This document shows positions 7,272-21,576 of a stretch of 21,793 nt of DNA, piece by piece (position 1 is the stretch's first letter; each line of letters starts with the position of its first letter). The notes beneath the pieces were generated by a model, which saw only the letters and a program-made list of their open reading frames with translations, searched no databases and had not been told where the DNA came from. Where the stretch lies: positions 1 to 21,793 of IMG/VR virus record IMGVR_UViG_3300017779_000188; one strand, 5' to 3'. The translations under genes and the position numbers were made by a program. Source of the stretch: a virus.

Positions 7272-7293
7272 ATTATACCAACAAAAAAACCCC
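7272..7293 (-). promoter_or_regulatory. Putative leaderless late promoter of the tail operon
   Basis: On the minus strand GGGGTTTT (7293-7286) is followed by 8 bases, TATAAT (7277-7272), 7 bases and ATG (7264). TGG precedes the -10, forming an extended -10, and there is no recognisable -35. Transcription would start at or next to the ATG. The same spacing is found at the terminase gene. Confidence 0.65.
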
Positions 7294-7311
7294 TCACTTA
7301 GGAGGGGTTTT
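7283..7311 (-). terminator. Intrinsic terminator after the 8095-7325 gene
   Basis: A perfect 10-bp stem (AAAACCCCTC / GAGGGGTTTT, loop of 6) is followed on the minus strand by a run of seven T. It lies 14 bases after the stop of the minus-strand DNA-binding-like gene. The 3' arm also has T on the plus strand, but no plus-strand gene ends here. Confidence 0.9.
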
Positions 7312-8498: not shown

Positions 8499-9035
8499 AT
8501 GATAGCTAGTTGTATGCTGTTTTTAGCAACATTTGGTACTCCAGATGCTCCTAATTTATCAGAAAATCAACAAATTAATTCATTTATAGAATGTAAACAA
8601 AATGTACCCTCTACAATGTTGCAATATTCTCATTTGTATGTTGAGTTTTTTGATTATGAAAATATAGATACAGCAGTAAGGATTGGTTGGTGTGAATCAA
8701 GAGGTAAATCTTCTGCTCATAGATTAGATAATGGTGATACAGGTGTTATGCAATTCGTGTCTTGGACATGGAATTGGGTTGCAGAGAAGTATGAGATGCC
8801 GATGTGGGATGAATGGGTAGTTTTAAAATGGGGTAGGCCTTACAATGGACCAACTTCTAAAATAAATACTGGTTTTTCTTTTACTAAAGTACAATATACT
8901 CCGTATTACAACATTATGATGGCTTCAATACTTGCCGAAGATATTTATGGCAAAACTCAATGGCGTGATTGGAATTCAAGTAAATGGTGCTGGGAAGACG
9001 AAGAGAAATGGAGAAAAAAATGGCTCAACGAATAG
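8499..9035 (+). CDS. Lysozyme-like transglycosylase, possible lysin
   Basis: The 178-residue product has the core of the lysozyme-like superfamily. AVRIGWCESRGKSSAHR (59-75) provides the catalytic Glu at about residue 66, NGDTGVMQFVSWTWNWVA (78-95) matches the G-x-M/F-Q-F motif, and the end (MASILAEDIYGKTQWRDW-NSSKWCW) matches the family's A...G...W..S..CW signature. It should cleave the glycan strands of peptidoglycan, for host lysis or for DNA entry. The first 15 residues (MIASCMLFLATFGTP) are hydrophobic but lack a positive start, so a signal peptide is uncertain. It is unusual that the gene stands in the middle of the structural region on the opposite strand, and no holin-like membrane protein is visible beside it. 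ATG 8499 is preceded by AAAGGA at a suitable distance. Confidence 0.85.
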   Translation: MIASCMLFLATFGTPDAPNLSENQQINSFIECKQNVPSTMLQYSHLYVEFFDYENIDTAVRIGWCESRGKSSAHRLDNGDTGVMQFVSWTWNWVAEKYEMPMWDEWVVLKWGRPYNGPTSKINTGFSFTKVQYTPYYNIMMASILAEDIYGKTQWRDWNSSKWCWEDEEKWRKKWLNE

Positions 9036-9636: not shown

Positions 9637-9695
9637 TGAATGAAAAAGATTATTGTGAAGATTATGGTTGGGATGATTTAGACGATGAATTATAG
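9636..9695 (+). CDS. Possible 19-residue acidic micro-ORF
   Basis: ATG 9636 overlaps the previous stop (TAATG) and the frame ends at TAG 9695, inside the next gene, encoding MNEKDYCEDYGWDDLDDEL. It may be a real microprotein or merely a translational bridge that carries ribosomes to the SET gene, which lacks a strong ribosome site of its own. Confidence 0.35.
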   Translation: MNEKDYCEDYGWDDLDDEL

Positions 9696-9975
9696 ACCTT
9701 TACCAGAACATCTTACAATTAAAAAATCAAAAATAGAAGGACTAGGATTATTTGCCTTAAAAGACATAGAAAAGGGTGTAAATAGTGGAATTACTCATAT
9801 TACAGACCCCATCACTAATAAGCTTTTTAGAACACCTCTTGGTGGTTTTATCAATCACAGTGAAGAACCCAATGCGAAACTTGTAGAAGTCCAAAGATTT
9901 AGATACCTTTACTTTTTAAGAGACATAAAAAAAGATGAAGAAATAACTCTTAAATATACAATGTATTCTGTTTAG
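9685..9975 (+). CDS. SET-domain protein, putative protein lysine methyltransferase
   Basis: The 96-residue protein is a minimal SET domain. Present are the opening SKIEGLGLFALKDIEKG (15-31), the core GGFINHSEEPNA with the Asn-His-Ser motif at 57-59, which contributes to S-adenosylmethionine binding, and the closing DEEITLKYTMY (84-94) with Tyr at 91, the position of the catalytic tyrosine. The region between the first strand and NHS is short, so the substrate-recognition insert is nearly absent. Such small SET proteins occur in some marine viruses and bacteria, and their substrates are not established. It is the last gene of the plus island and its stop overlaps the stop of the convergent zinc-ribbon gene by four bases. 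Enzyme activity is inferred from motif retention only. Confidence 0.85.
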   Translation: MNYRPLPEHLTIKKSKIEGLGLFALKDIEKGVNSGITHITDPITNKLFRTPLGGFINHSEEPNAKLVEVQRFRYLYFLRDIKKDEEITLKYTMYSV

Positions 9976-16546: not shown

Positions 16547-17806
16547 TTAAAATGCTTCCCATTTTCTTTTTGTTCCGCTACTTAGACAGGCATAAGCTAA
16601 AGTGTCCACGATATCATCGTGAACTCCAACAGGGAATGTCAAAAGCTCTCTTTCGACTTCTCCAACCCAGTCTTCATCTTTAGGAAAATATACAAGTCCT
16701 CTTTCCATCTTAGCAGACAAAGGAAGTGCTCGTGAACGCTTGTCTTTGTCGGCCCTTAGTTCTTTAATCCTAAGACCATCTCTTCTTGCAAATTGAACTA
16801 TAGCTAGCTGGTATCCTGTTTTTTCTATGCCAACCCATTCTAAATTATGAATACCTACTGCTCTTTTAATTTGAGGAACAATGTCTGGTGCCTCAAATCT
16901 ATCTCTTATCATGTCTAACATAAATAATCTGTCAGATTGCATGTGGTATCCAAATACTGAGATGACTGTATAGTCAGCAGACTCTTTAGTAGAAGCTGCT
17001 AAGTCTACTGTTGCAAATTTAACTAAATCTCTATTGATATCAAATTTTTCACCCTCACACCAAACAGTACCAACTCCAAGTTTGTAGTAATTAAACCAAT
17101 GACTTCTAAACATTTGTGCGCCTTCAGAGATAAATTCTGCAAGGTACTCCTGCGCGAACACTAATTCTCCTAAATCTTGTCTTGCAGACTCGACTTCTGC
17201 TGGGTCAATAATAGGATTTGCTACTGTTGGAAATTGAAATCTTGCCCAATCATCAGCTGTGTGAGCTTTTTCCCATAAATGATAAAACCAATTGTCCATT
17301 CCAATAGGGGTTGAGATAAAAAGTGCTGCACCTTTATTTTCGGTAAGAGTAGGTCTTAATACTTCTGTCCACGTTTCTTCTCTCACGAAAGCAGCTTCAT
17401 CCATAACTAAAAAGTTCAAACCTTCACCACGAAGTCTTTGAGGATTATCAGCAGATTTTACAGAGATAGAACCGCCTCCGGGAAATTTTACTTCCATATC
17501 ACCAATTCTTATGTCTACACCAGCTTCTTTTGGAAATTCTTGTGCCGCTGCAACTACATCTCTCCAACCCACTCTAGCAATTGCAAAAGTAGGAGCTACC
17601 CACCAAACACGACCCCCTTTAAGTGCTTCTTCTAAACATAACTGAACACCAAGTCTGGATTTTCCAAAACGACGACCAGCACAGAGAATTTTCCAACGAG
17701 CTGGGTCATCTCTTACTGTTTGTTGTGCTTCGTGAAGTGCGGGGAACTCTAATATGAATTCCTGCTCTCTTAAACTAGTTTTACTTTCTAGTATATCTCT
17801 AGACAT
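16547..17806 (-). CDS. terL: Terminase large subunit
   Basis: The 419-residue protein is the ATP-driven DNA-packaging motor and nuclease. Walker A is AGRRFGKS at 43-50, Walker B is FLVMDE at 132-137, and the coupling motif FISTP follows at 163-167. The nuclease domain shows FATVDLAAS with Asp at 268, the IEKTG segment with Glu at 328, and HDDIVD with Asp at 397-398, the expected acidic metal-binding set. Length is normal for this family. There is no Shine-Dalgarno before ATG 17806, and a TATAAT ends seven bases upstream, so it heads the head operon as a leaderless mRNA. The portal gene follows immediately. A neighbouring gene in the terminase small subunit position lies behind the terminator. 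Confidence 0.96.
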   Translation of the reverse strand: MSRDILESKTSLREQEFILEFPALHEAQQTVRDDPARWKILCAGRRFGKSRLGVQLCLEEALKGGRVWWVAPTFAIARVGWRDVVAAAQEFPKEAGVDIRIGDMEVKFPGGGSISVKSADNPQRLRGEGLNFLVMDEAAFVREETWTEVLRPTLTENKGAALFISTPIGMDNWFYHLWEKAHTADDWARFQFPTVANPIIDPAEVESARQDLGELVFAQEYLAEFISEGAQMFRSHWFNYYKLGVGTVWCEGEKFDINRDLVKFATVDLAASTKESADYTVISVFGYHMQSDRLFMLDMIRDRFEAPDIVPQIKRAVGIHNLEWVGIEKTGYQLAIVQFARRDGLRIKELRADKDKRSRALPLSAKMERGLVYFPKDEDWVGEVERELLTFPVGVHDDIVDTLAYACLSSGTKRKWEAF

Positions 17807-19164: not shown

Positions 19165-19282
19165 TCAAATCAAAGTCTTCATCTGAATTATTATGTTTGT
19201 TAATCATAACTTCCATAATCATTTTTTTGAATTCGTCTGAACCAATTTCTATACTTGGTCCATCAAAAGGATTATCACTCAT
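19157..19282 (-). CDS. 41-residue acidic microprotein
   Basis: ATG 19282 to TAA 19157 encodes MSDNPFDGPSIEIGSDEFKK followed by MIMEVMINKHNNSDEDFDLN and Ala. The start overlaps the previous stop as ATGA. GGAGAAGAAG lies seven bases upstream inside the previous gene and serves as a ribosome site. The short central helix with Met and Ile may mediate binding to another protein. No family recognised. Confidence 0.6.
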   Translation of the reverse strand: MSDNPFDGPSIEIGSDEFKKMIMEVMINKHNNSDEDFDLNA

Positions 19283-19443
19283 TCTTCTTCTCCTATCTTT
19301 CCAATATCTTTAATACTTACAAGTTTTGTTTTCCAAAGATAATGTATATTTGGAATATCTTTTCTTGCCATGTTTTCTGCTTCTGACAAACTGTTAGCTA
19401 TGTATTTTTTATTAGCTACAATCTTCACATTAAATTTTCTCAT
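19279..19443 (-). CDS. 54-residue basic protein of the small operon
   Basis: ATG 19443 to TGA 19279 encodes MRKFNVKIVANKKYIANSLS and 34 more residues, with beta-alpha-like layout and a Lys-rich character (...DIPNIHYLWKTKLVSIKDIG). Start and stop both overlap their neighbours as ATGA. Small proteins with the opening KxFxVxIxANKxYxA occur in other phages as uncharacterised products, but I cannot name a family. Confidence 0.65.
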   Translation of the reverse strand: MRKFNVKIVANKKYIANSLSEAENMARKDIPNIHYLWKTKLVSIKDIGKIGEEE

Positions 19444-19682
19444 AGTTCCTCTCTAAGGTTTTCTTCATTAGGTAAAGTCCAAGTAGTCATTTGATAACTT
19501 AGTCCACTACTTTCTAATGCTTTGTTTATTTGTTCAATAGCTTCTTCTATGTCGGTAAAAGGTGTAAAAACAAAATCTACTCCCATAGTCGGTCTTTCTA
19601 ATTTTTTATCAGTAGTATGCCATTGATAAATGCCTGTTTCATCATATAGTTTTTCTACTGCTTCTTTAGTCACTGGTTTCAT
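19440..19682 (-). CDS. 80-residue unknown protein, first of the small operon
   Basis: The frame begins at ATG 19682, three bases after a strong AGGAGG, and ends with TGA sharing bases with the next start (ATGA). MKPVTKEAVEKLYDETGIYQ then VDFVFTPFTDIEEAIEQINK give alternating helix and strand. One Trp lies at QWHTT. No cysteines and no membrane segment. It is the first product after the TTGACA...CATACT promoter, so it should be made early and well. Function unknown. Confidence 0.8.
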   Translation of the reverse strand: MKPVTKEAVEKLYDETGIYQWHTTDKKLERPTMGVDFVFTPFTDIEEAIEQINKALESSGLSYQMTTWTLPNEENLREEL

Positions 19683-19707
19683 AATCCTCCTGTTGTGTTA
19701 TATATTA

Positions 19708-19736
19708 AGTATGCCATACAATAAATGTATTGTCAA
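19708..19736 (-). promoter_or_regulatory. Early-type promoter of the small-gene operon, with palindrome
   Basis: TTGACA (19736-19731), 17 bases ending TGG, then CATACT (19713-19708). The -10 lies inside a near-perfect 13-bp palindrome (19708-19720), one mismatch from AGTATG-C-CATACT, so a bound protein would block the -10. The leader is about 20 bases. Confidence 0.8.
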
Positions 19737-19749
19737 GTCAAAAGTAAAA

Positions 19750-20143
19750 AAATTTTGTAAATTCATTTTGGATACGACTCTCCGAAGAGAGCCGACGATG
19801 GGAGGGTATCGGCAATGGAACAACTATTGCTAGTTATTCACCGACCTAATAATTATACCCTCTAATTTGCTCGCCGTTTTCTTGCACCATTGTTTTGATT
19901 CTTTAATCATTATTTAAATAATAGGTACAAAAAAGTTAAGGGAATCTATTAATACTTTTACTTAATCACTACATTTAGTATCCAGTACACACACAACTTA
20001 GTTATGTTTCCGATTCCCTAGGCCTTGTGTGGGGTTTCGCTCCCCAATGTGATTGTACAAGTGTCCAAACAAATACCTTCCCATCGTATCTTTTACCACA
20101 AGGCTGTCCCGCTGAAATTACTATTGCTAGTAAAGTCAAGCAG
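19750..20143 (-). ncRNA. Candidate structured non-coding RNA, about 390 nt
   Basis: No convincing gene occupies this block, yet the minus strand holds many perfect helices. In order: CCTGC/GCGGG (20144-20140/20112-20108) around TTACTA-GCAA-TAGTAA (20133-20118). GCCTTGTG/CACAAGGC (20104-20097/20029-20022) enclosing TGGGG/CCCCA (20046/20030). AGGGAATC/GATTCCCT (20019-20012/19946-19939) enclosing ACATAAC/GTTGTGT. GAGGGTAT/ATACCCTC (19862-19855/19809-19802) enclosing AACTA-GCAA-TAGTT. CTCTC-TTCG-GAGAG (19791-19778). A long-range ACGATGGGA/TCCCATCGT (20087-20079/19803-19795) crosses the second helix, giving a pseudoknot, and GATACGA/TCGTATC competes with it. The tetraloops (GCAA twice, cUUCGg) are only stable on the minus strand. 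A sigma70-like promoter precedes it, and a T7 run lies at 19752-19746. It does not match tmRNA, RNase P or 6S RNA as I know them. Confidence 0.7.
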
Positions 20144-20147
20144 GTTA

Positions 20148-20176
20148 ATTATATTAAGAGTCTAAACAAAAGTCAA
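20148..20176 (-). promoter_or_regulatory. Promoter of the candidate ncRNA
   Basis: TTGACT (20176-20171), exactly 17 bases, TATAAT (20153-20148) on the minus strand. It overlaps the last codons and stop of the preceding gene. Transcription would start near 20144-20141, just where the first helix CCTGC begins. Confidence 0.7.
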
Positions 20177-20813
20177 CTACGGTTTTAATATAGTTCTTTG
20201 AGTACATAGCTTTTGAAATTAAATCTAAAGCATTCTCTTCTTCTTCTTCTGTGTCAAAAATCTTTTCTAGTTCATCTCCTACCACATTAGGTAAGCCTTG
20301 ATTAGAAATGTTTTCTTTTATTATGTCAAACATATTTTCCATATCTGAAACTGTTAAATCACCATCTTCGTTTTCCATAATAAAACTAATACAGCTACCA
20401 ACAGCTTTTTTAACACTTGAAGACATTGCTAGAACTTCATCTTCATAATTCCAAAGAGACCATTTGATAACTTCTTCTTTATCTTTAGACTTAAGTCTTT
20501 TAAATTTAATTTTTTGTAAGGTTTTTATAGCCTCCGCGTTTTTAATTAAATTCTGTTCTCTTATTTCCTCTATGCCTCTGTGCATAAGCTCTGCCATACA
20601 AAGTTCCATATAAGCTAAAATAGCTGCGTGGCAAATCACTTCGTCTTTTTGCATAGTTCCACCATCTGTTATCCAGTCTATGTTATTACGCATAACTGAT
20701 AAAGAATTCTTTTGGTAGTTTTGCACTCTTATGTCGTTGTAAAACAACATAGAATGAAATATTGCACTAGCTTTATCTTCTCGTATGTTATCTTCTATAA
20801 AATCACTTATCAT
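20154..20813 (-). CDS. Unknown helical protein, second gene of the right-hand operon
   Basis: The 219-residue protein is largely helical and acidic toward the end (EKIFDTEEEEENALDLISK). A central Lys-rich segment (TLQKIKFKRLKSKDKEEVIKW, about 98-118) separates two helical halves. No membrane segment and no catalytic motif are visible. ATG 20813 lies seven bases after AGGA and overlaps the end of the first gene by 11 bases, so the two are coupled and may act together. I recognise no family. Confidence 0.8.
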   Translation of the reverse strand: MISDFIEDNIREDKASAIFHSMLFYNDIRVQNYQKNSLSVMRNNIDWITDGGTMQKDEVICHAAILAYMELCMAELMHRGIEEIREQNLIKNAEAIKTLQKIKFKRLKSKDKEEVIKWSLWNYEDEVLAMSSSVKKAVGSCISFIMENEDGDLTVSDMENMFDIIKENISNQGLPNVVGDELEKIFDTEEEEENALDLISKAMYSKNYIKTVVDFCLDS

Positions 20814-21513: not shown

Positions 21514-21539
21514 TATTTACCTCATTTCTATATATATAG

Positions 21540-21568
21540 AGTATGCCATACTTTGTAACGAAAGTCAA
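21540..21568 (-). promoter_or_regulatory. Early-type promoter with perfect 13-bp palindrome
   Basis: TTGACT (21568-21563), 17 bases ending TGG, then CATACT (21545-21540). AGTATG-C-CATACT (21540-21552) is a perfect odd palindrome covering the -10, an operator-like placement shared with 19708-19720. Confidence 0.8.
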
Positions 21569-21576
21569 ATCTTAAC

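Follow-up and report, generated by a model that had tools for sequence, protein, structure and literature searches.

A candidate new class of phage-borne structured RNA with a tRNA-like 5' domain

Results

An RNA block in front of the packaging genes

The source record is a 21.8-kb virus DNA, and the window, by which we mean the whole stretch of 21,793 nucleotides that was analysed, spans all of it. The minus strand encodes terminase, portal, prohead protease, major head, and tape-measure genes, and the minus strand also carries, at 19763-20144, the RNA block described here, which is about 380 nt long and is flanked by up1 (219 aa, 20154-20813) and dn1 (80 aa, 19440-19682). The neighbouring genes that were scanned (up1, up2, and dn4) gave no useful sequence match in Pfam, PHROG, or PDB, and no PDB structure is a significant neighbour of the folds predicted for up1 and up2; a role of up2 as a helicase loader was dropped on the same ground. 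Along the minus strand the order is promoter, 5' hairpin, tRNA-like domain, hairpins D2, D3, D4, and H5, tail, and next-operon promoter. The promoter in front of the block is a sigma70-type sequence, TTGACT-N17-TATAAT (20148-20176, minus strand, with the -35 at 20171-20176 and TATAAT at 20148-20153), and the first helix begins 4 nt downstream of TATAAT. Although its -35 overlaps the final codons of the upstream gene, the promoter is conserved, being kept at the same position in groups A and C and in part of group D (groups as given below) with a spacing of 16-17 bp, in agreement with a preliminary description of this DNA in which the RNA gene had its own promoter at the first helix. Immediately behind the RNA lies the promoter of the next operon, recognized by sequence as TTGACA followed by GTATGGCATACT (19708-19736, minus strand), and several relatives have a further TTGACA-type promoter 10-40 bases behind the block. 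The extended -10 GTATGGCATACT is contained in both of the minus-strand promoter regions 19700-19736 and 21530-21575, suggesting that the operons starting at these two sites may be under common control.

Distribution and conservation in uncultivated phages

With TerL (16547-17806) as the query, 33 loci were found in viral contigs, and wherever blastn detects the block in one of these loci, its position upstream of the terminase is unchanged. The distance from block to TerL is about 1-3 kb, the TerL proteins are 80-97% identical, and the two occur together wherever the contig reaches. The block precedes the packaging and head genes in all relatives and is present in one copy; a covariance model of the 3' domain (R1) likewise matches once per record, apart from a few extra weak matches on the opposite strand. 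A 20-mer of the 3' domain, CCGATACCCTCCCATCGTCG, is exact in every TerL-selected relative that reaches the region and has a one-base variant in L059-L062. When viral contigs were scanned directly, the 20-mer recovered 34 stretches and two other 3'-domain patterns recovered 32 and 38, all belonging to one lineage where the flanks were readable. Outside these contigs, blastn found no match to the 3' domain in cultured phages or plasmids and only short chance matches, or none, to the block as a whole; the 20-mer is absent from the 84,980 prokaryote genomes scanned, the TerL scan of the genome collection returned nothing, and the nearest cultured-phage TerL listed is less than 30% identical.

We sorted the sequences into five groups: A (the window, L002, L005, L006, L007, and L009), B (L034, L025, L023, L020, and L015), C (L030, L010, L035, L041, L048, L049, and L056), D (L037, L038, L055, L051, L046, and L059-L062), and E (L029). 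The part between the two ends of the RNA varies by group: in group C the tRNA-like domain and D4 are about 1 kb apart, with two to four short genes in the space between them, and in group E two genes are inserted between the RNA ends. In L049 and L056, one of the inserted genes resembles the window gene at 19279-19443, which in the window sits behind the RNA. The gene directly behind the block differs among relatives. Where blastn can align the RNA block, nucleotide identity is 72-85% for most relatives, whereas the up1 proteins are 21-57% identical among relatives, which points to strong constraint on the RNA itself. Endolysins with Amidase_2 and peptidoglycan-binding domains were seen in two of the records.

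Folding and compensatory change

The preliminary description had proposed a large structured RNA gene on the minus strand, and folding energies, relatives, and compensatory changes all agree with it. The minus strand of the block has a minimum free energy of -114.3 kcal/mol against -86.6 +/- 5.8 kcal/mol in shuffled sequences (z -4.78; 0 of 100 shuffles equal it), compared with a z of -2.72 against shuffles for the plus strand of the same block. The stable tetraloops are confined to one strand, as had been noted: the cUUCGg loop and both ACTAGCAATAGT hairpins (GCAA) form on the minus strand only. The preliminary description had also named a conserved reading frame as evidence against an RNA gene; none was found in the block, where most indel lengths are not divisible by three and the longest frame has at most 57 codons.

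Relatives in viral contigs, which had been proposed as the next check, provide compensatory changes in the helices. In group A, an alignment of 78 pairs in 13 helices has 97.4% of cells paired, and both bases have changed in 11 pairs (4.5 +/- 1.4 in shuffles, 0/500). D2, aligned in 14 sequences, has 98.3% of cells paired and 17 double-change cells (4.6 +/- 1.8 in shuffles, 0/500). D4 together with H5, in 26 sequences whose alignment was fitted to the model, has 92.7% of cells paired and 68 double-change cells (25.5 +/- 3.5 in shuffles, 0/500); the central helices of this region are invariant and thus neither support nor oppose the fold. For groups C and E, the tRNA-like domain has double changes at 7 of its 24 pairs, most of them contributed by L029 alone. 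The shuffles keep the relatedness of the sequences, and structures slid by 1-3 columns score far worse in all three of the shuffle-tested counts. Read on the minus strand, the ratio of G-U to A-C cells is 27:0 for group A and 40:8 for D4, and this identifies the minus strand as that of the RNA.

The block opens with a 5' hairpin (20108-20144, minus strand; helix 1 of group A alignment A10) in which CCUGCU pairs with AGCGGG around an inner UUACUA-GCAA-UAGUAA hairpin, followed by GGGACAG. Most groups have the motif G[GA]GACA (GGGACAG or GAGACAG) somewhere in the RNA, at about 20103-20112 (minus strand) in the window, but it is missing in L007 and L056; it stands before the tRNA-like domain in group A, inside it in groups B and D, and in a hairpin before D4 in group C. 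The middle hairpin D2 (19937-20021, minus strand; supported by covariation in the 14 sequences) has the form CUA-GGGAAUC...GAUUCCC with a conserved interior, ACUAAAUGUAGUG, and a U-rich 3' flank. In most relatives a U-run follows the stem, making D2 terminator-like, so that the transcript may be two RNAs. D3 (19883-19931, minus strand) contains an inner AUUAUUUAAAUAAU hairpin and corresponds to helices 7 and 8 of the group A alignment.

A tRNA-like 5' domain

The 5' domain (20022-20103, minus strand) is tRNA-like in having a 12-pair acceptor/T stack, a 7-base loop, and a 3' tail. In the window, a 7-bp acceptor-like stem pairs 20097-20103 with 20023-20029, a 5-bp T-arm-like hairpin occupies 20030-20046, a D-like hairpin lies between, and C-CUA follows. 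The 3' strand of the acceptor-like stem runs straight into the T-arm-like hairpin, giving 12 stacked pairs in all 18 representatives, with covariation in alignments A10 and A7; the stack divides as 7+5, 6+6, or 8+4, and in L041 and L051 it has 11 standard pairs. The T-arm-like loop has 7 bases in 14 of the 18, 6 bases in three, and 11 bases in L051, and the 3' tail reads N-C-N-A in most representatives. Between the acceptor strands, 23-137 nt replace the D and anticodon arms, and there is no ordinary anticodon arm. ARAGORN reported no tRNA or tmRNA genes in the window and 25 relatives, and the Rfam tRNA and tmRNA models do not pick out the 5' domain either, which counts against a tRNA-like reading. 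The stack was first parsed by eye and the length of 12 was picked afterwards (some group A members allow a 13th pair), so the evidence for it is strong but not blind. An automatic pattern search found the stack in 13 of 14 sequences tested, missing L041 because of a U-U pair, and for each sequence only 0-4 of 300 shuffles contained the pattern in as good a form. L046 alone has a canonical T-loop (UUCAAAU); in most others the sequence is AGCGAUA, perhaps a loop of the GNRA type. A further tRNA-like element, carrying the G3-U70 pair of alanine tRNA and tmRNA, was recognized by eye between the first one and D2 in L059-L062.

A near-invariant 3' domain and its putative long-range partner

D4 (19794-19877, minus strand; supported by covariation and model R1) consists of CGGCGA/UCGUCG and GAGGGUA/UACCCUC helices, a CCCA internal loop, and an apical GCAA hairpin. 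The invariant 20-nt core of the 3' domain, CCGAUACCCUCCCAUCGUCG (19793-19812, minus strand), is exact in the TerL-selected relatives that reach this region. The last hairpin, H5 (GGCUCUC-UUCG-GAGAGUC, 19776-19793, minus strand), has 7 pairs with 100% of cells paired in the 26-sequence alignment and an A-U/G-C/G-U exchange at the second pair; a conserved unpaired tail, GUAUCCAAAAUGA (19763-19775, minus strand; alignment A1), follows. This near-invariant domain, the tRNA-like 5' domain, the terminator-like D2, and the genes between the RNA ends were absent from the preliminary description.

That description did include a 9-bp pairing crossing another helix, and recurrence in relatives backs it. 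In the window, ACGATGGGA (20079-20087) and TCCCATCGT are exact 9-nt complements that cross the local 3' helices; the tRNA-like-domain partner, written as RNA ACGAUGGGA (20079-20087, minus strand), is the only 9-nt sequence in the whole window that complements the core in this way, and is equalled in 5 of 200 shuffles. The partners of this proposed clamp are CGAUGGGA in the tRNA-like domain and CUCCCAUCG in the 3' domain, and in most groups the tRNA-like domain holds an 8-10-nt complement of the 3' core UCCCAUCG: ACGAUGGGA in group A, GUGGGAGGG in group B (the segment scanned in L034 did not include its GUGGGAGGG, which is nevertheless present in the sequence), CGAUGGGAG in groups C and E, and GAUGGGAGG in L059 and L061. 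Position and register differ from one complement to the next, and where they were scored 0-11 of 200 shuffles did equally well. The core barely varies in the compared set and covariation is therefore unusable for this pairing; it is the recurrence of a complement in shifting places that supports a putative long-range pairing. The clamp does not extend to every relative, since L037, L038, L055, L051, and L046 have a weak complement or none. The competing helix GATACGA/TCGTATC, from which a switch had been proposed, fared worse: L006 and L007 have GATTCGA opposite an unchanged 3' partner, other groups have no partner at this position, and the specific switch is left unsupported. The core was also considered as an antisense sequence to another phage site, and no consistent complement was seen in five long records and the window.

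Comparison with known RNAs

An Rfam search of 501 bases at E 10 found no family, its two chance matches lying far below the cut-offs; RNase P, 6S, group I and II introns, and other Rfam families gave no model match, in line with the earlier statement that the RNA is not tmRNA, RNase P, or 6S. A group I intron and a two-piece tmRNA were considered from the layout and rejected for want of a supporting core or model match. The resemblance to tmRNA lies in the stacked acceptor and T-arm with an insert in place of the D and anticodon part, but the window block differs in having no message part, tag frame, G3-U70, or tmRNA-type D-loop. Its third acceptor pair is U-A; most others have A-U, C-G, or U-A, and only L051 has G-U. 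The tmRNA models RF00023 and RF01849 have no match in the window block at E 10, and in the blocks of the relatives only a 17-base T-arm piece of L046 matches RF00023.

Separate tRNA mimics of about 80 nt that resemble tmRNA occur at L041:4605-4683 (plus strand), L063:1501-1579 (G005:4565-4643, plus strand), L064:1501-1581 (G001:7213-7293, plus strand), and L037:9995-10075 (minus strand), and inside the block of L059, L060, L061, and L062. They have a tmRNA-type D-loop, one helix replacing the message part, a T-arm, and, in all of those read by eye, G3-U70; the highest score against RF00023, whose cut-off is 47, is 48.6 bits. Their sequences suggest tmRNA heads that could be charged with alanine but lack a message.

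Discussion

The comparison among relatives shows a strand-specific, structured, and modular RNA with a conserved promoter sequence, its modules being a tRNA-like 5' domain, a variable middle (D2 and D3, or short genes), and a near-invariant 3' domain. We think there is about an even chance that it is a structured non-coding RNA of phages that forms a class of its own, with a GOLLD-like plan, discrete, stable, and acting in trans. Against this reading stand the weak or missing core complement in five relatives, the terminator-like D2, the genes that separate the two RNA ends in groups C and E, and a T-loop that is canonical in L046 only. The preliminary description had left the choice between a new member of the GOLLD group and a new class; model searches speak against GOLLD, although the layout resembles it. 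GOLLD and ROOL, both large RNAs of phages, form cages built of RNA, and GOLLD has a conserved 3' region, a less conserved 5' region, and tRNAs in or near a variable linker (PMC12286853). The block is likewise phage-borne, large, and elaborate, with a conserved 3' domain (26/26), a 5' domain and linker that vary by group, and tRNA-like elements near the linker. It differs in being about 380 rather than about 800 nt long, in having a core unrelated by search, a 5' domain that is itself tRNA-like, and a linker that may hold protein genes. ROOL resembles it as a phage-borne ornate RNA with pseudoknots near tRNA islands, but differs in that no model matches and no tRNA genes were found in the five long records examined. 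With no match to the GOLLD and ROOL covariance models at E <= 10 (window, 501 bases) or E <= 1 (five relatives), half the length, and an unrelated core, a remote member of these cage-forming families is very improbable despite the shared plan. Two other phage RNAs invite comparison. The tRNA cluster of T4 encodes stable RNAs of unknown function, species 1 and 2, beside its tRNAs; searches gave no similarity to the block. In HK022, the put RNA is a pair of neighbouring, strongly conserved stem-loops that precedes an operon of the phage and modifies RNA polymerase; the block has paired conserved stem-loops upstream of an operon too, and differs in sequence and size.

This last likeness bears on the strongest rival explanation, a cis-acting leader or antitermination element at which the late-operon transcript would start, with the 3' domain modifying polymerase or with read-through of D2 being controlled. 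The position of the block just upstream of a long packaging, head, and tail operon in every relative would fit such an element, as would the extreme conservation of D4 and H5 as adjacent stem-loops and the U-run after D2. However, the TTGACA-type promoter behind the block in several relatives means that the late operon need not carry the RNA, the downstream gene is not constant, and both the tRNA-like domain and the clamp would be left unexplained, and we regard this explanation as unlikely. The tRNA-like features would be accounted for if the RNA were a degenerate or reduced tmRNA, or a tRNA derivative mimicking tmRNA, that interferes with or hijacks ribosome rescue. The 12-bp acceptor/T-like stack, the C-N-A tail in most sequences, the canonical T-loop of L046 with its T-arm match to RF00023, and the message-less G3-U70 elements in the same phages, some inside the block, all lean this way; the window domain, though, has none of the G3-U70, tmRNA-type D-loop, or tag frame, nor does the window block match the tmRNA models, which makes this origin improbable.

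A DNA element, whether an operator of the downstream promoter, a replication origin, or a pac or cos site whose hairpins are cruciforms, could explain why the core and H5 are near-invariant on both stem strands and lie near a promoter and the terminase genes. It would predict neither the excess of G-U over A-C cells nor UUCG and GCAA loops on the minus strand only, the distance from H5 to the next promoter varies, and the promoter in front of the block is conserved; we consider it quite improbable. Proximity to the terminase could also suggest a packaging RNA like the pRNA of phi29, working with the adjacent enzyme, given that the block always lies shortly upstream of TerL and accompanies it wherever the contig reaches. 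The block yielded no multimerising loop pair, and phi29 pRNA belongs with a different type of packaging ATPase, so that this is the least probable reading considered, with hardly any weight. We prefer a trans-acting, translation-associated RNA to both the late-operon leader and the DNA element.

If the block does encode such a trans-acting RNA, it would be a discrete, stable molecule folded into a particle. Its tRNA-like end might be recognized by the tRNA machinery, through processing by RNase P or Z and possibly through CCA addition or binding of EF-Tu or the ribosome. The tRNA-like domain would clamp the CUCCCAUCG internal loop of the 3' domain by 8-10 bp, uniting both ends of the RNA across a freely varying linker, and the invariant 3' domain would touch a conserved partner, either a host protein or an RNA. 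As a first guess, its role may be tied to host translation. The tRNA-like domain and the separate tmRNA-like elements point to such a link, as does, purely by analogy, the ribosome binding of GOLLD that is reported in work cited by PMC12286853. A more specific and unlikely proposal is a tRNA-mimic switch, in which capture or charging by the host translation machinery exposes or hides the invariant 3' domain; if true, it would give the phage a means of sensing translation or of taking it over. Few large structured RNAs are known from phages, and their functions are open. The block adds to them a compact and constant feature of one lineage with strong comparative support and with a tRNA-like domain that appears to be specifically paired to the 3' domain, and it indicates that public RNA libraries still lack whole classes from uncultivated phages.

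Other features of the window

A strong intrinsic terminator, CCCCTCCTAAGTGAGGGGTTTTTTT (7280-7310, minus strand), is the source of weak chance Rfam matches. A short gene at 8499-9035 (plus strand) has no PHROG match and by eye is lytic transglycosylase-like (WCESRG...DTGVMQF). A 96-aa protein encoded at 9685-9975 (plus strand) has a SET-domain match (Pfam PF00856, E 1.4e-9), which is unusual for a phage.
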